A stretch of DNA of 36,346 nt from an uncultured bacterium (GTDB lineage Bacteria; Nitrospirota; Thermodesulfovibrionia; Thermodesulfovibrionales; CALJEL01), in assembly GCA_938074335.1 (NCBI GenBank), contig CALJEL010000071.1:1-36346 (forward strand), in the 5' to 3' direction. Each line of letters starts with the position of its first letter. Positions within the stretch are counted from its first letter, which is position 1. The notes below the pieces were generated by a model, which was given only the letters and a program-made list of their open reading frames with translations, searched no databases and was not told where the DNA came from. Shown here piece after piece: positions 14,343 through 22,682 of the stretch. Made by a program: the position numbers and the translations under genes.

Positions 14343-14486
14343 AATTTAGTTAGGTCATGTGTGCTTATTCGATGAATTAATTAACTTGTCACTGATAAAC
14401 GGATTGCCTGATGTGAATTATTGATTAATGTAATTTCCTATTTAATTTTCATTAAGTTCTTAAAATTATCTGAAAAGGAGGAGCCT

Positions 14487-17400
14487 ATGTCAGTATCAAG
14501 AAGGGATTTTCTCAAACTAAGTGGTGGGGGTTTATTGCTTGGTTCTCTGGGCATTGACCTCTCACCTCTTAAGTCTTACGCCCAGACCTTGAGGATAAAG
14601 AATGCAAAAGAGACCTACACGGTTTGTCCCTTCTGTTCAGTGGGATGCGGTATCATAGTTCACAGCCGGGATGGAAAGGTTATAAACACAGAAGGCGATC
14701 CTGACCATCCCATAAACGAAGGTACCCTCTGTTCAAAGGGTGCAGCACTGTACCAGGTTGTAAATAATCCTTTAAGGATTACAAAACCCCTGTACCGTGC
14801 CCCTGGTGCAAAGGAGTGGAAGGAGGTTGACTGGGACTGGGCACTTGATCAGATTGCAAGGAGGATCAAGGATACCCGTGACAGGACCTTTAAGATCACA
14901 TCAAAATCAAAGGTAAAGGAGAAACAGCCTGATGGCACAGAGATAGAGGTTGAAAAGGAATTTGTTGTAAACAGGACTGATGGCATTGCCCATGTGGGAA
15001 GTGCGGCACTTGATAATGAGGAATGTTATATACTTCAAAAATGGTTGAGGTCTCTTGGGCTTGTCTACATAGAGCACCAGGCCCGAATATGACACTCCCC
15101 TACTGTGGCGGCTCTGGCAGAGTCGTTCGGTAGAGGGGCAATGACAAATCAGTGGAATGACATTAAGAATGCTGATGTGATACTTGTAATGGGTGCTAAT
15201 CCTGCTGAGAATCATCCTATCTCAATGAGATGGGTCATGAAGGCAAAGGAAAGAGGTGCAAAGCTCATAGTTGTTGATCCCCGTTTCACCAGGACAGCAG
15301 CAAAGGCAGATATATACTGTCCTATTCGTTCAGGTACTGATATAGCATTCCTTGGAGGCATGATAAACTACATCCTCCAGAACAATCTTTACTTTAAAGA
15401 CTATGTTGTCAATTATACCAATGCAACCTATCTGGTAAATCCCGAATTCAAGGGTCCTGGTGAGCTTGATGGTGTCTTTTCTGGATATGATCCAAAGACA
15501 AGAAAATATGACAAAAAGACCTGGTCCTATCAGCTTGATGAAAATGGTATACCAAAAAAAGACCCTACACTCAAGGATCCTCACTGTGTGTTCCAGCTTC
15601 TAAAGAAACATTATTCCCGATATACCATTGACAGGGTAGCGCAGATTACCGGTGCACCAAAAGAAAAGATACTTGAGGTCTATAAGACCTATGCCTCAAC
15701 AGGAAGGCCCGACAGGGTTGCCACAGAGCTCTATGCCATGGGATGGACACAGCATACAGTTGGTACTCAGAACATAAGGGCAATGGCAATAATCCAGCTT
15801 CTTCTTGGCAATGTTGGAATGGCAGGTGGAGGGATAAACGCCTTAAGGGGTGAGTCAAATGTCCAGGGTGCCACTGACCAGGGAGTGTTATTCCACATAC
15901 TTCCTGGTTATCTTCCTGTTCCAACTGCGTCCCTTACAGACTTAAATAAATACATTGAGAAATATACACCAAAGACAAAGGACCCCAAGAGTGTCAACTG
16001 GTGGTCAAACAGGAATAAATATATAGTGAGTTACCTCAAGGCTATATGGGGAGATAAGGCTACGAAGGAGAATGACTTTGGCTATCAGTGGCTTCCAAAG
16101 CTTGATGAGGGTCAGAATTGCTCATGGCTTGTGCTTTTTGATGAGATGTTTAAAGGAAGATTTGAAGGATTTTTTGCCTGGGGTCAGAATCCTGCCTGTT
16201 CAAGTGGCAATGCAGGTAAGGTCAGAAAGGCACTGGCAAAACTAAAATGGATGGTAAATGTGAATCTCTTTGAAAACGAGACAGGTTCTTTCTGGAAGGC
16301 ACCTGGTGTAAAGCCTGAAGAGATCCAGACAGAGGTATTCTTCCTTCCCTGTGCCTTTTCAGTTGAAAAAGAAGGAAGCATTACAAACTCAGGAAGACTT
16401 GCCCAGTGGAGATACAAGGCAGTGGATCCACCAGGCGAGGCTAGGTCTGATGCAGATATAATAAACGAGCTTTACTTCCGGGTCAAGAAACTCTATCAGA
16501 AAGAGGGTGGTAAATTCCCTGAGCCCATACTCAATCTCACATGGAACTATGGTGAGAGAGGTCAGGATGGAAAGATAAAAAAGGTCAATACCCATCTTAT
16601 TGCAAAGGAGATAAATGGATATTACCTAACTGATATCTTTGATACAAAGGTGACACCTCCAAAACAGATTGGTAAAAAAGGTCAGCTATGCACCAATTTT
16701 GTTACCCTTCAGGCAGATGGTACCACCTCCTGCGGAAACTGGATATACAGTGGCTCTTACACAGAGAAGGATGGAAAGGTTATTAATATGATGGCAAGGC
16801 GTGGAAGGAAAGACATAAATGGACTTGGTCTATATCCAGAATGGGCATGGTGCTGGCCTTTAAACAGAAGGATTATTTATAACCGTGCCTCTGTTGATCT
16901 TCAGGGAAGGCCCTGGGACAAAAAACGGGCAGTCATATGGTGGAACCCTGAGAAGATAAATCCCCAGACAAATAAGCCAGGCACATGGGAAGGTGATGTG
17001 CCTGATGGACCAGCACCTCCTATGGGAATGGAAGGAGGAAAGTATCCGTTCATAATGAGACCGGAAGGAGTGGGTCTGATATTCGGTCCTGGACTTAATG
17101 ATGGGCCATTCCCTGAGCATTATGAGCCCCTTGAATGTCCTCTCCAGGAGAATCCACTTTCAAAGAAGCACAGGATAAATCCAACAGTTAGACTCTTTTA
17201 TCCTGTAAAGGGTCCCCATGATATGCCTGCAGAAAAGGGGCCTGAAGAGGATATATTCTTCAGCTGTGACATAAGATATCCCTATGTGGCAACAACCTAT
17301 CGTGTATCAGAGCACTGGCAGACAGGTGTTCTTACAAGACACCTTCCGTGGCAGCTTGAGATGATGCCACAGCAGTTTGTTGAGATCAGCAAGGAACTTG

Positions 17401-17675
17401 CTGCAGAGAAGGGGATCAAAAGCGGCGACAAGGTAATAGTCTCCTCTGCCAGGGGAAAGGTCTGGGCGATAGCAATAGTGACAGAAAGGCTCAAGCCCTT
17501 TAAGGTTATGAATCAGACCATACATCAGGTAGGGCTTCCATGGTGCTTTGGATGGCTGTATCCAGAGGATGGAAGTGGTGGTGACAGCTCCAATCTCCTC
17601 ACACCGACCATTGGTGATGCCAATACCCTCATTCCCGAGACAAAGGCATTCATGGTCAATATTGAGAAGGCATAG
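14487..17675 (+). CDS. fdnG: Formate dehydrogenase-N type catalytic subunit, selenocysteine-containing
   Basis: The gene reads through an in-frame TGA at 15090-15092, giving 1,062 residues with selenocysteine at position 202 in the context H-Q-A-R-I-U-H-S-P-T-V, closely matching E. coli FdnG. It oxidises formate to CO2 at a molybdenum or tungsten bis-pterin site. A Tat signal (S-R-R-D-F-L-K-L) covers residues 4-32. A [4Fe-4S] motif is formed by C47, C50, C54 and C82. The sequence G-R-G-A-M-T-N-Q-W follows the Sec site, and the C-terminal pterin-binding domain ends G-D-A-N-T-L-I-P-E-T-K-A-F. The chosen ATG has AAAAGGAGG 4-6 bases upstream and places the twin arginines near the N-terminus. fdnH, fdnI and fdhE in the same operon confirm the role. 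Confidence 0.96.
15090..15138 (+). promoter_or_regulatory. fdnG: SECIS element in fdnG mRNA
   Basis: Counting the U of UGA as 1, CCCC (8-11) pairs with GGGG (46-49). After a two-base bulge, TAC (12-14) pairs with GTA (41-43), then T15-G40 and G16-C39. An upper stem (21-26 with 30-35) closes on a GGC loop. U17 falls in the internal loop, the position of the key unpaired U in the E. coli fdhF element. The apical loop starts with G, as bacterial SECIS loops usually do. This hairpin would recruit SelB for Sec insertion. Confidence 0.75.
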
Positions 17676-17686
17676 GAGGTGAAAAG

Positions 17687-18439
17687 ATGGCAAGAAAGGC
17701 TTTATTAATATCTCCAGAACTCTGCATAGGCTGCAGGGGCTGTCAGACAGCCTGTAAGGCCTGGAATCAGCTTCCAGCAACAAAGACAGTAAATAAAGGC
17801 ACCTTTGAGAATCCTCCAGACCTTACACCTAATCTTTATAACAGGATTCGTTATGTGGAGGTCCCCTCAGAGACCAATATGGTCAGATGGCTCTTTGTGA
17901 GCCAGAGGTGTATGCATTGCGATGACGCAGGATGTATAAGGATATGTCCAGCCCCTGGTGCATTATTCAAGACAAAAGAGGGTGCAGTCGCCTTTGACAA
18001 GAACAAATGCATAGGCTGCAAGCTCTGTGTGGCAGGCTGCCCCTTCAATGTGCCGAGATACGATGAGAAGGACAAGATATCAAAGTGTCATCTCTGCTCA
18101 GACAGGATAGCTGAAGGACTTTCACCAGCCTGTGCAAAGACCTGTCCAACTGGTGCAATTGCCTATGGAGACAGGGATGAATTAATAGCAAAGGCACAGA
18201 AGGCTGGTTATCAGAAACTCTATGGAGAGGCAGATCTTGGTGGTCTTGGTGTACTCTATGCCTTTAAGGATGCACCAAAACTCTACGGGATGATTGAAAA
18301 ACCTGAGATACCAGAGACAGTCCTCTTCTGGCACAAGGTGTTGAAGCCCCTTTCTTACATAGGCCTTGCTGGTGCAGTGGCAGCAGCAGCACTGCATTAC
18401 ATAGCCATCGGGCCAAAAAGAGATGAGGGAGGTGAATAA
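17687..18439 (+). CDS. fdnH: Formate dehydrogenase iron-sulfur subunit
   Basis: This 250-residue subunit passes electrons from FdnG to the membrane cytochrome. Four [4Fe-4S] cysteine groups are visible: C-I-G-C-R-G-C-Q-T-A-C near 17-27, C-M-H-C-D-D-A-G-C-I-R-I-C-P, C-I-G-C-K-L-C-V-A-G-C-P, and C-H-L-C followed by C-A-K-T-C-P. A single C-terminal membrane helix lies at about 218-237, as in FdnH/FdoH. AGGAGG precedes the ATG, 11 bases after the fdnG stop. It has no signal of its own, so it would be carried out with FdnG by the Tat system. Confidence 0.95.
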   Translation: MARKALLISPELCIGCRGCQTACKAWNQLPATKTVNKGTFENPPDLTPNLYNRIRYVEVPSETNMVRWLFVSQRCMHCDDAGCIRICPAPGALFKTKEGAVAFDKNKCIGCKLCVAGCPFNVPRYDEKDKISKCHLCSDRIAEGLSPACAKTCPTGAIAYGDRDELIAKAQKAGYQKLYGEADLGGLGVLYAFKDAPKLYGMIEKPEIPETVLFWHKVLKPLSYIGLAGAVAAAALHYIAIGPKRDEGGE

Positions 18440-18441
18440 AA

Positions 18442-19044
18442 ATGACACAATATATTAAAAAGGCAACAGCTGCTGAGATAATAAATCACTGGTTACTTGC
18501 AGGAAGCTTTTTTCTGCTTGCCATTACTGGCTTTGGTTTTCTCTTTAAACTTGAGTGGATGGCATCAATATTTGGCAGCTTCCATTCCATGAGGACCATA
18601 CATAACTGGTCTGGGGTGGTCTTTATAATTGCCCTTCTGGGAACAGTGTTCCATTATTTACCTGTTGCCTTAAGCTGGAGCAAAGATGATATTGAGTGGT
18701 TCAAGAAGGCAGGTGGTTATCTCTCAAAGGGTGTGAAGGTACCTCCTCAGGATATAATCAATGCAGGGCAGAAGCTATTTTATCTATTTCTGCTTATCTC
18801 AGGTATAGTAATAGCTGCCTCAGGTTTTGTGATATGGCTTATGGCTGGTGTTAGAGAATGGGTCCTGATATCCCATCTGCTTCATAACATAGCCTTTGAC
18901 CTTCTTGTGATAGCAATACCCCTTCATATCTACCTTGGAACCCTCGCAAACCCCGGCACATTCAGGATTATGGTCTATGGAACGGTTCCTGTGGAGTGGG
19001 CAAGGAAAAGGCATGGAAAATGGGTTCAGAGGTTAGGGTATTAA
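18442..19044 (+). CDS. fdnI: Formate dehydrogenase cytochrome b subunit
   Basis: FdnI is the diheme b-type membrane subunit that hands electrons from formate to quinone. The 200-residue protein has four membrane helices (about 18-36, 53-72, 112-133 and 148-169) and histidines suited to haem ligation, including H17, H50, H67, H148 and H162. It starts two bases after the fdnH stop and ends directly before the next ATG, so translation is tightly coupled. Length and helix count are typical of the FdnI/FdoI gamma subunit. Confidence 0.93.
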   Translation: MTQYIKKATAAEIINHWLLAGSFFLLAITGFGFLFKLEWMASIFGSFHSMRTIHNWSGVVFIIALLGTVFHYLPVALSWSKDDIEWFKKAGGYLSKGVKVPPQDIINAGQKLFYLFLLISGIVIAASGFVIWLMAGVREWVLISHLLHNIAFDLLVIAIPLHIYLGTLANPGTFRIMVYGTVPVEWARKRHGKWVQRLGY

Positions 19045-19296
19045 ATGGCAATTATATATGATGAGGTCTGGATAACAAGCTCAAGGGAGGTGCAGGTATG
19101 CCTTGATGCAATAAAGGCCTATGAAAAAGAATTAAAGGAATTAGAAGACAGATATAGCATCAAAGGAAATGAGTTATTGCTAAAGATAGAGGATGGCTAT
19201 GTCCCTTCCGGGCCTGAGGCGAGGTGGTATGAGACCCACCTCGGCCTCTTGAGGACCAGGGAGAGACTTGAAGGGTTAAAGAGATTCCTTGAATGA
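19045..19296 (+). CDS. Small uncharacterised protein in the formate dehydrogenase operon
   Basis: This 83-residue protein is not one I recognise. It is soluble, with no signal or membrane segment, and appears mainly helical with a likely coiled coil (K-A-Y-E-K-E-L-K-E-L-E-D-R-Y near 24-37). A single cysteine lies near residue 19. Its ATG directly follows the fdnI stop, which argues for a real, translationally coupled gene rather than a chance frame. Its place between the cytochrome subunit and a predicted selenoprotein suggests an assembly role, but that is inference. Confidence 0.72.
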   Translation: MAIIYDEVWITSSREVQVCLDAIKAYEKELKELEDRYSIKGNELLLKIEDGYVPSGPEARWYETHLGLLRTRERLEGLKRFLE

Positions 19297-19316
19297 GTAA
19301 AAGGAAGGGTTAAGGT

Positions 19317-19943
19317 TTGAGTCTTAATAGAGATAGAGCAGGATTATCAGGGAAAATAACCTTAACCTTTCTCCTGATCTTCTTTTTTATCACCACCATT
19401 CTTTATGCTCAGGAGAAAAGATATAACCTGCCTGTTGAGGGTTCACCATCCTATGGGCCTCCTGATGCACCTGTAACCATAATAGAGTTTCTTGATTATC
19501 AATGACCCCATTGTGTAGGGGTCGGTCCGACCATTGAGAGATTGCTGAAGGAATATCATGGTAAGATCAGGCTGATCATAAAACACTATCCCTATAAATA
19601 CAGGGATTTTTCTCACCTCGCAGCAGAGGCAGCCATGGCTGCCCATGAGCAGGGTAGATTCTGGCAGATGCATGAACTGTTACTTAAAAGGTCCCCAGAG
19701 CTTGACAGGGAAAGCCTGATAAGATACGCAAAGGAACTGGGACTTGATCTTAATAAATTCATAGATTCTCTTGACAGGATGAAGCATAAAGACATAATTG
19801 AGAGGGACAAAAAACTTGCCATTGAACTTGACCTTTATAATACTCCTACATTCTTTATAAATGGCAGAAAGGTCATTGGTAACAGACCCTATGAATACTT
19901 TAAAAAGATCATAGAGGAGGAACTGAAGGGTGCAAAAAAATAA
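19317..19943 (+). CDS. DsbA/thioredoxin-like exported oxidoreductase, predicted selenoprotein (UxxC)
   Basis: Two frames, 19317-19505 and 19542-19943, are one gene interrupted by a TGA at 19503-19505 in the same frame. Reading the TGA as selenocysteine gives 208 residues with the active site U63-P-H-C66 after I-E-F-L-D-Y-Q, where DsbA-like thioredoxin-fold proteins have C-P-x-C. A signal peptide or anchor spans about 14-31, so the protein acts outside the cytoplasm. The cis-proline motif N-T-P-T-F-F-I-N-G and the long helical insert fit the family. The start is TTG, 7 bases after AAGGAAGGG. A hairpin at 19520-19532 sits where a bacterial SECIS belongs, and the upstream fdnG also needs Sec. 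The alternative, a nonsense-mutated Cys gene, seems unlikely because the rest of the frame is intact and the TGA falls exactly on the catalytic position. Confidence 0.85.
19503..19532 (+). promoter_or_regulatory. Candidate SECIS of the UxxC oxidoreductase gene
   Basis: With the U of UGA as position 1, GGTCG (18-22) pairs perfectly with CGACC (26-30), leaving a three-base loop GTC at 23-25. G23 and U24 coincide with the apical-loop G and U read by SelB in the E. coli fdhF element. The stem is short and lacks an obvious bulged U at 17. The placement is seen in the sequence; SelB recognition is inferred. Confidence 0.6.
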
Positions 19944-21033
19944 AGGACAGAAGGCAGAATACAGAAGAAATCCATGGACCTCAATCATTTACCCTTTACT
20001 TATTTTAATCCTCATAAGTATCCCCGATCTGGTAGTCTCAGGACATCTGGAGCCATTCAGGTCAGTGCAAATACCAGATTACAATCCCCAGACACCTGAA
20101 AAGATAGAACTCGGCAAAAAACTCTTCTTTGACAGGAGGCTCTCAGGAGATGGGACGATGAGCTGTGCAACCTGTCACATACCTGACCTTGCCTTTACAG
20201 ATGGTCTTGAGGTCTCCCTGAGTTATCCGACCACAAGGAACTGGAGGAATGCACCAACACTGATAAATGTGGCCTTTAGCAAATATCTTTTCTGGGATGG
20301 AAGGGCAGTTTCTCTTGAGGATCAGGCACTCTTTCCCATGATGTCCGCCTTTGAGATGAATCAGAACCTTGACTTTCTTGAGGAGGAATTAAGATCAGTC
20401 CCGGAGTATGTGGAGGCCTTCAAAGAGGTCTTTGGTGGTGAGATAACAAGGCAAAAGATCGCCATGGCAATTGCTGCCTTTGAAAGGACACTTGTGTCAA
20501 AGAATGCGCCCATCGATAGATTTTTAAATGGTGATAAAGATGCCCTTTCTCCTGAGGCAAAAAAAGGGTATGAGATATTCACCGGTAAAGGCAGGTGTTC
20601 TGAATGTCACCATGGAGTTAATCTCAGTGATGATAAATTCTATAATCTCGGCGTTCCTGAAAATAAGGAATTAGAAAGAGACCCAAGGATTGCTGCCACA
20701 AGGAGGTTCGTTGCAAAGGTTTATCATTATGAAGATTATCTGAATCTCAAAGAGGACCCCGGCAGGTATCTGATAACAAAGGACAAAAAAGACTGGAAGG
20801 CCTTCAAGACACCCACATTAAGAGAGGTAGCAAGGACTGCACCTTATATGCATAACGGCATATTTAAAACTCTTGATGAGGTTATTGAATTCTTCAATCA
20901 GGGTGGAGGAATGGGTAATACCGTGCTTAAACCCCTGGGACTCAGTGAAGAGGAAAGAAGAAATCTCAGGATTTTTCTTGAAGAGGCGCTCACCGGGGAG
21001 GAGATTGTGATAAAATATCCAGAGATCCCCTGA
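19930..21033 (+). CDS. Diheme cytochrome c peroxidase (CcpA/MauG family)
   Basis: These periplasmic enzymes reduce hydrogen peroxide with electrons from small cytochromes; MauG-like relatives perform other oxidations. The 367-residue product has an N-terminal membrane or signal segment (about 18-37) and two haem motifs, C79-A-T-C82-H83 and C222-S-E-C225-H226. The conserved segments L-G-K-K-L-F-F-D-R-R-L-S and A-P-Y-M-H-N-G are present. The start is GTG, 9 bases after GAGGAGG, overlapping the end of the preceding oxidoreductase gene by 14 bases. Maturation needs a haem-attachment system such as ResB/CcsA encoded at the start of the window. Its place in the operon suggests peroxide defence for the exported formate dehydrogenase and thiol oxidoreductase. 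Confidence 0.9.
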   Translation: MQKNKGQKAEYRRNPWTSIIYPLLILILISIPDLVVSGHLEPFRSVQIPDYNPQTPEKIELGKKLFFDRRLSGDGTMSCATCHIPDLAFTDGLEVSLSYPTTRNWRNAPTLINVAFSKYLFWDGRAVSLEDQALFPMMSAFEMNQNLDFLEEELRSVPEYVEAFKEVFGGEITRQKIAMAIAAFERTLVSKNAPIDRFLNGDKDALSPEAKKGYEIFTGKGRCSECHHGVNLSDDKFYNLGVPENKELERDPRIAATRRFVAKVYHYEDYLNLKEDPGRYLITKDKKDWKAFKTPTLREVARTAPYMHNGIFKTLDEVIEFFNQGGGMGNTVLKPLGLSEEERRNLRIFLEEALTGEEIVIKYPEIP

Positions 21034-21782
21034 TGGAAATAGATAAGATTATAGAAAAGAAACCCCACCTCAAAGAGACACTCCTCCTTTATAAAAAGGT
21101 AAAGGAGTTTAATGACTTAATAATGGAATCTTACAGGGATTCATTAAATCAGGCAGATATATGCTATCCACCCTATATTGTGGAAGGGATATTTCAGAAA
21201 TTTTCTCAGGTCTTTGATATTCCCCTTGAGAGCCTTGTTCCTCTTATGGAGGCCATGAGGCTCAGGCAGATAGACCTCACAAGGCTTCCCCATAGTGAGG
21301 TCTCGGGTTTTCTCTTACCCTATCATGAAGATGAACTCTGGATGATAATTTTTATTATTGGCAGGCCCTTTTTCCTTGGCATGAAAAGACTCTTTAACCT
21401 TGATGACCTTTTCTGGCAGGATGGAAGATGTCCTGTTTGCAATGCAAGGCCTGCCATGTCCTCAATACTTGAGGATGGCAGGAGAAGACTTCACTGCTCT
21501 TTCTGTGATAATTCAGGTTTCTACAGAAGGCTCGGATGCCCCCTCTGTGGAAATTTTGATATTAAAAAAGACAATATACTTATCATTGAGGAAGAAGAGG
21601 GCTACAGGATAGAATTCTGCGATGACTGTGGTTTTTATATAAAGACCGTGAAGGAAGAAAAGTTAAAGGACTATTCCATTGACATTGCTGACCTTATAAG
21701 CCTTCCCCTTGATATAATAGCTCAGGGAAGGGGTTACAGGAGAGGCTCCCCAAATCCCCTTGGAATGCTCAGGATGGCATAG
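21033..21782 (+). CDS. fdhE: Formate dehydrogenase accessory protein FdhE
   Basis: FdhE is a cytoplasmic iron-binding protein needed to mature respiratory formate dehydrogenases; it interacts with the catalytic subunit before export. The 249-residue product has four CxxC pairs in its C-terminal half: C133-P-V-C136, C155-S-F-C158, C169-P-L-C172 and C196-D-D-C199. These match the rubredoxin-like metal sites of the family. The ATG overlaps the peroxidase stop as TGATG, so it closes the operon by translational coupling. This supports the view that the peroxidase and the UxxC protein belong to the formate dehydrogenase unit. Confidence 0.93.
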   Translation: MEIDKIIEKKPHLKETLLLYKKVKEFNDLIMESYRDSLNQADICYPPYIVEGIFQKFSQVFDIPLESLVPLMEAMRLRQIDLTRLPHSEVSGFLLPYHEDELWMIIFIIGRPFFLGMKRLFNLDDLFWQDGRCPVCNARPAMSSILEDGRRRLHCSFCDNSGFYRRLGCPLCGNFDIKKDNILIIEEEEGYRIEFCDDCGFYIKTVKEEKLKDYSIDIADLISLPLDIIAQGRGYRRGSPNPLGMLRMA

Positions 21783-22145: not shown

Positions 22146-22682
22146 ATGCCACTTGCAAAAAAATATATACCCCATTATACCATTCAAGATTACATGCGGT
22201 GGGAAGGTGACTGGGAACTCATTGAGGGAATTCCTGTTGCCATGTCACCAAGTGCTGGTTTTACCCATCAAAGGATCTGCGGTCAGATCTATTATCAGCT
22301 CAGGGAACTTTTAAAGGTTTGTAAAAACTGTCTGGCCCTTTATGAGCTTGACTGGATTGTTTCTGAAGATACAGTTTTAAGACCTGATGTTATTGTCATA
22401 TGCCATAAGCCAGAAGGAGAGTATATTACAAAGACTCCTGAGGTTATCTTTGAAGTGGTTTCCCAGCAGACACTACAGAAAGACCAGATGGTGAAATACG
22501 AGATATATGAAAAAGAAGGAGTGAGGTATTTTGTAATAGTTTATCCTGAAAAGACTTCAGCAATAGTTTTTAAAAATATGGATAATAAATTTACAAAACT
22601 AACTGAAGAAGGAGACAACAAAATAATCTTTGAACTTGAAGATCGCACCTTCTCTTTTGATTTTTCAAAGAGTTTTACTTGA
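22146..22682 (+). CDS. Uma2-family (DUF820) restriction-endonuclease-fold protein
   Basis: The 178-residue product fits the Uma2/DUF820 family of PD-(D/E)xK-fold proteins, common in cyanobacteria and often multicopy in other phyla. The N-terminus has W-E-L-I-E-G-I-P-V-A-M-S-P-S-A-G. The putative catalytic residues are in L-R-P-D-V-I-V-I (aspartate), V-I-F-E-V-V-S (glutamate) and a following lysine in D-Q-M-V-K-Y-E. The biological role of the family is not established. The gene sits directly after repeat copy 2, has no ribosome binding site and overlaps the 3' end of bioB by 8 bases tail to tail. These features suggest a later arrival. Confidence 0.85.
   Translation: MPLAKKYIPHYTIQDYMRWEGDWELIEGIPVAMSPSAGFTHQRICGQIYYQLRELLKVCKNCLALYELDWIVSEDTVLRPDVIVICHKPEGEYITKTPEVIFEVVSQQTLQKDQMVKYEIYEKEGVRYFVIVYPEKTSAIVFKNMDNKFTKLTEEGDNKIIFELEDRTFSFDFSKSFT

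Follow-up and report, generated by a model that had tools for sequence, protein, structure and literature searches.

A predicted selenocysteine-containing DsbA-like oxidoreductase encoded beside a di-heme peroxidase-like protein in Thermodesulfovibrio-type Nitrospirota

A reading frame that standard annotation divides at an internal TGA very probably encodes a genuine selenoprotein, in which UGA is read as selenocysteine (Sec) and in which the nucleophilic residue of an exported thiol-disulfide oxidoreductase of the DsbA family would be Sec rather than Cys (U63-P-H-C66). We refer to the product as Sec-DsbA. Its gene was found in a 36,346-nucleotide stretch of DNA from an uncultured Nitrospirota bacterium (the window), where the gene order is fdhA(U)-fdhB-fdhC-orf83-dsbA(U)-dihemeCCP-fdhE (Table 1). 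We propose that SelB and the Sec-specific transfer RNA (tRNA-Sec) decode this UGA, helped by a short hairpin.

Table 1 Features of the Sec-DsbA gene and its operon in the window
Feature	Position	Strand	Details
fdhA, formate dehydrogenase-N alpha subunit, selenoprotein	14487..17675	+	TIGR01553, 1440.7 bits (cut-off 814.2)
Sec TGA of fdhA	15090..15092	+	U224 of the longest frame; HQARI-U-HSPTV
fdhB, formate dehydrogenase iron-sulfur beta subunit	17687..18439	+	TIGR01582, 233 bits, below the 334.7 cut-off; Form-deh_trans
fdhC, cytochrome b561-type gamma subunit	18442..19044	+	TIGR01583, 117.5 bits (cut-off 115.85)
orf83	19045..19296	+	No family
Predicted Sec-containing DsbA-like oxidoreductase gene	19317..19943	+	208 aa; TTG start, TAA stop; translation with TGA as U
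N-terminal signal peptide or membrane anchor	19317..19409	+	About residues 1-31; hydrophobic; modelled as a helix over 10-29; cleavage site judged by eye alone
TGA codon, predicted to be read as Sec	19503..19505	+	Residue 63 of U-P-H-C; TGA in 70/70 distinct orthologues
Resolving Cys66 of UPHC (TGT)	19512..19514	+	Invariant in the 40-sequence alignment
Putative SECIS apical hairpin GGUCG-GUC-CGACC	19520..19532	+	Wobble entropy, RNAalifold consensus, pair counts
Thr-cis-Pro loop T176-P177	19842..19847	+	Invariant in the 40-sequence alignment
Di-heme cytochrome c peroxidase/MauG-like protein	19930..21033	+	PF03150, 188 bits
FdhE-like formate dehydrogenase accessory protein	21033..21782	+	PF24860, 36 bits (cut-off 27); TIGR01562 below cut-off

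The TGA at codon 63 is the single internal stop of the frame, which runs on to a terminal TAA. Read with TGA as Sec, the active-site context is ...EFLDYQ-U-PHC-VGVGPT..., confirming on sequence the proposal of the initial annotation that the TGA stands for the first Cys of a CxxC (CPHC) motif in an otherwise intact frame. The TTG at 19317, preceded at about 7 nt by GGAAGGG, is the earliest possible start because an in-frame TAA lies at 19311-19313. Splitting of the gene by automatic annotation, likewise foreseen, was borne out by standard ORF calling, which lists only the downstream part (19542-19943). That a gene finder divides the frame speaks for taking the TGA at face value, as a true stop, a sequencing error or the mark of a pseudogene, with two truncated proteins as the outcome; this we regard as exceedingly improbable, given that the TGA and the intact frame beyond it are kept in 70 distinct orthologues and that third-base constraint is confined to the hairpin, as set out below.

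The search for relatives covered 396 genomes from the host's phylum; at least one was present in 262, and every listed match with at least about 53% identity that spans the site carried one or two in-frame TGA codons. When the DNA of 70 distinct orthologues (at least 50% identity) was read, codon 63 was TGA in all 70 and Cys in none. These orthologues are mostly or all from Nitrospirota; eight are named records, most of them labelled Nitrospirae/Nitrospirota or Thermodesulfovibrio(nia), with one Deferribacteres bacterium and one uncultured bacterium. The assignment to a phylum follows these titles and the taxonomy labels of the tree. Farther afield, the Sec site is TGC or TGT in 37 more distant homologues and TGA in a second, more distant group of 14 sequences. 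Close homologues thus uniformly carry TGA and distant ones Cys, the arrangement by which bacterial selenoproteins are recognized: an in-frame UGA at a catalytic Cys position for which Cys homologues exist. An identical TGA in 70 independent sequences also excludes a local read error, and with it the possibility, raised at the outset, that 19503-19505 is a misread TGT or TGC. Conservation therefore rejects a stop, a sequencing error, a pseudogene or a code change as explanations.

The main Sec group occupies 23 rows of the tree, has support values of 98/96 and contains Sec in every member. One TGA-bearing sequence with 44% identity and no di-heme neighbour (L113) was considered for this group; the tree places it outside. 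A second set of TGA-bearing DsbA-like genes from the same phylum (L119-L131, with U-P-Y/F-C motifs) shares the TGA position and DsbA-family homology with Sec-DsbA but differs from it in sequence (34-41% identity), in falling on separate branches and in its hairpin sequence; genes of this set sometimes occur in genomes that also carry the main family.

The hairpin GGUCG-GUC-CGACC begins 14 nt 3' of the UGA and, as the initial annotation had stated, places G and U at positions 23 and 24 counted from the T of the TGA, matching the positions reported for the Escherichia coli fdhF SECIS. At four-fold degenerate sites, wobble entropy averaged 1.79 +/- 0.16 bits (minimum 1.33) over 52 reference columns outside the hairpin region, and third-base variation dropped solely in the five hairpin codons, +5 to +9 after the TGA (0.62, 0.19, 0.19, 0.22 and 0.61 bits). 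The consensus that these codons define, GG(U/C)CG-GUC-CG(A/G)CC, was also the helix, and the only one, returned by RNAalifold on the orthologue alignment. All five pairs form in 53 of the 70 orthologues and at least four in 69, while the apical GGUCC is kept in 67; the element accordingly has the form of a bacterial SECIS, a stem-loop just 3' of the UGA with GUC or GGUC in the loop at positions 22-25. Pair 20-28 is U-A in 26 sequences, C-G in 24, U-G in 5 and an unpaired C-A in 15, and the exchange between U20-A28 and C20-G28, which we count in favour of the hairpin, is partly bound to coding (Val/Ala and Thr/Ala/Val). When folded by itself, the 63-nt region does not exceed its shuffles in stability (z = -0.08) and prefers a different hairpin; this competitor is fully paired in just 13 of the 70 orthologues. 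The predicted SECIS is thus backed by codon-level constraint and not by the fold of a single sequence.

A check of the host genome for selA, selB, selC and selD found all four, with scores of 604 bits for SelA, 399 bits for SelB, 310 bits for SelD and 76 bits for tRNA-Sec (anticodon UCA). A second locus (G000:C110:2178-2292, locus L003:1501-1615) also exceeds the gathering score for tRNA-Sec, at 57.7 bits, and is possibly another long-armed tRNA. The selD gene itself (L011:1501-2430) is interrupted by a TGA in frame (AAG-U-AAKIG), behind which lies GGUCC-GUC-GGACC, a hairpin near-identical to that of Sec-DsbA and sharing its GUC loop. About 4 kb upstream of the Sec-DsbA gene, the Sec codon of fdhA is also followed by a strong hairpin (fold of 15093-15140, -24.7 kcal/mol, z = -2.9). 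Standard calling splits fdhA as well, into two ORFs of one frame (14421-15092 and 15105-17675). A genome-wide code change, by which TGA would be read as Trp, Gly or Cys, has next to no probability: we found nothing in its favour, and against it stand the Cys at this site in homologues, the presence of selA, selB, selC and selD, the coupling of the TGA to a constrained 3' hairpin, and the TGA codons at the known Sec sites of fdhA and selD in the same genome.

Among genomes of the main clade, SelB scored above the cut-off in 46 of the 49 tested, the other three perhaps reflecting assembly gaps, and none was found in eight distant genomes of the phylum that lack the TGA version. Within the order, SelB is nearly universal, whether or not a genome carries the Sec-DsbA gene. 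We count this co-occurrence only as supportive, because relatives of the same order without Sec-DsbA possess SelB too.

Membership of the DsbA family is well supported. The protein matches PF13462 (Thioredoxin_4; 104.1 bits, cut-off 23.2) and PF01323 (DSBA; 73.2 bits, cut-off 25.6), and an AlphaFold2 model built with 40 orthologues has a mean pLDDT of 94.2. Foldseek searches with this model returned DsbA-type folds (E = 5e-13 to 3gyk), and U63, C66, T176 and P177 do not vary across the 40 aligned sequences. The initial annotation had also described a signal peptide and a cis-proline loop; the hydrophobic N-terminal segment, judged by eye to be an export signal, and T176-P177 are both present, giving, together with UxxC in place of CxxC, the features expected of the family. 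The nearest relatives of known structure, 3gyk from Silicibacter pomeroyi, Wolbachia alpha-DsbA2 (6eez) and BdbD (3eu3), are 26-27% identical to Sec-DsbA; these three and the ScsC family share its fold, with TM-scores of about 0.70-0.76 (normalized by query length), but have Cys where Sec-DsbA has Sec. The best NCBIfam match, over residues 40-201, was NF041057 (Rcas_1661 thioredoxin-like (seleno)lipoprotein), a family of UxxC proteins or their Cys homologues. We rejected this identity, the score being 102.3 bits against a cut-off of 190, and by eye the signal segment shows no lipobox.

A nearly constant neighbour of the gene is the di-heme protein, whose coding sequence in the window starts within the end of the Sec-DsbA gene. 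Neither this neighbour nor the operon figures in the initial annotation. A di-heme gene lies directly behind Sec-DsbA in 62 of the 66 main-clade copies whose downstream sequence is long enough to tell. One further main-clade copy (L106:5038-6702) has both proteins in one open frame, with an A-run at the junction that may betray an indel or assembly error instead of a true fusion. The exceptions are L095, where the match to the di-heme gene is confined to its last part, and the L110 tandem pair. At that locus (L110:5077-6396) two Sec-DsbA copies stand in tandem, the second with U-T-H-C, and no di-heme gene follows. Compared with solved structures, the di-heme protein, which has two CxxCH motifs, scores best against cytochrome c peroxidases (186 bits, compared with about 80 bits for MauG). 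Within a conserved PYMHNG...EFFNQG segment, the position of the cytochrome c peroxidase Met is occupied by Phe or, in a number of copies, by Leu or Val; MauG has Tyr at this site.

By hand count, formate dehydrogenase genes lie upstream in 27 of the 41 loci with enough sequence, and the loci of one genus (g5, in part of L098 to L112) lack them while nearly all have FdhE downstream. No counterpart of orf83 was found in the other loci tested. Downstream of the operon in the window is a gene for a Uma2-type putative endonuclease (22146-22682).

From gene order alone, we tentatively suggest that Sec-DsbA and the di-heme protein form a catalytic pair, serving either peroxide reduction or reoxidation. 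Sec-DsbA would act outside the cytoplasm, where a U63-C66 selenylsulfide may form, and would exchange electrons with the di-heme peroxidase-like protein; the pair would then drain thiol electrons to peroxide, or the cytochrome would reoxidize the Dsb protein. In many genomes it may thereby shield or assist an exported formate dehydrogenase that depends on Sec. Whether the two constitute a two-component exported redox system of a selenol/thiol protein and a haem peroxidase, acting as a thiol-driven peroxidase that guards exported formate dehydrogenase or as a haem-driven route of disulfide making independent of DsbB and VKOR, is a more speculative proposition that we hold with little confidence. 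Both oxidizing and reducing roles of Sec-DsbA are possible.

The candidate redox partners in the host genome bear on two other readings of this linkage. Pfam detected neither DsbB nor VKOR, the two other DSBA matches in the genome are weak, and two proteins of the DsbD_TM/CcdA type are present. Sec-DsbA could be the general periplasmic disulfide oxidant of an organism without DsbB or VKOR, co-transcribed with the di-heme cytochrome as its route of reoxidation, a reading that overlaps with that of a catalytic pair. We consider it possible but doubtful: UPHC corresponds to the CPHC motif of DsbA and the remaining DSBA-family matches are weak, yet the presence of two CcdA-like proteins points to a reducing pathway, a DsbB that has diverged, or some other quinone-linked oxidant, may have been overlooked, and a selenylsulfide is as a rule more reducing than a disulfide.

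Sec-DsbA might, alternatively, be a dedicated assembly factor that draws electrons from CcdA and maintains or restores the CxxCH cysteines of the di-heme protein encoded next to it, or of other exported cytochromes, during cytochrome c maturation, without being a catalytic partner of the finished cytochrome. That its gene always accompanies, with few exceptions, one for a protein bearing two CxxCH motifs fits such a role, as do the two CcdA/DsbD_TM proteins in a genome where DsbB and VKOR were not found by Pfam, and the Thr that precedes the cis-Pro, a residue common at this place in reducing or isomerizing Dsb proteins. We nevertheless consider it, too, possible but doubtful, since a CPHC-type motif is that of an oxidizing DsbA, general cytochrome maturation factors need no place beside one cytochrome gene, and Sec-DsbA is without a haem-handling domain.

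DsbA-like UxxC selenoproteins (PF01323) were reported from the Sargasso Sea by Zhang et al. in 2005 (PMC1088965) and counted in bacterial genomes in 2006 (PMC1794560). A 2026 review (PMC13188914) lists a 'DsbA-like protein form 1', with the published representative NIP15863.1, gives the Rcas_1661 family NF041057 as its 'DsbG-like' entry, and describes the functions of such selenoproteins as largely uncharacterized. Likened by description, Sec-DsbA shares with this family (PMC1088965; form 1 of PMC13188914) the DsbA fold, UxxC and a predicted SECIS 3' of the UGA; it differs in its UPHC motif, in being strictly Sec within one Nitrospirota clade and in its di-heme peroxidase-like neighbour. Because selenoproteins of this DsbA-like UxxC type have appeared in catalogues since 2005, we regard Sec-DsbA as a strictly Sec-using addition to a known family. 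Open-licence PubMed Central yielded nothing specific on Sec-DsbA in Thermodesulfovibrio, on its link to a di-heme protein or on DsbA with MauG, and within that literature, as far as we searched, the constant association of Sec-DsbA with a di-heme peroxidase-like protein is unreported.

A gene that standard annotation splits in two thus becomes part of a selenoprotein family that is well supported and spans much of the Thermodesulfovibrio-type Nitrospirota, indicating that an exported Dsb-type enzyme can depend strictly on Sec. Its pairing with a di-heme protein offers a direct, testable way into the role of Sec-containing Dsb proteins.
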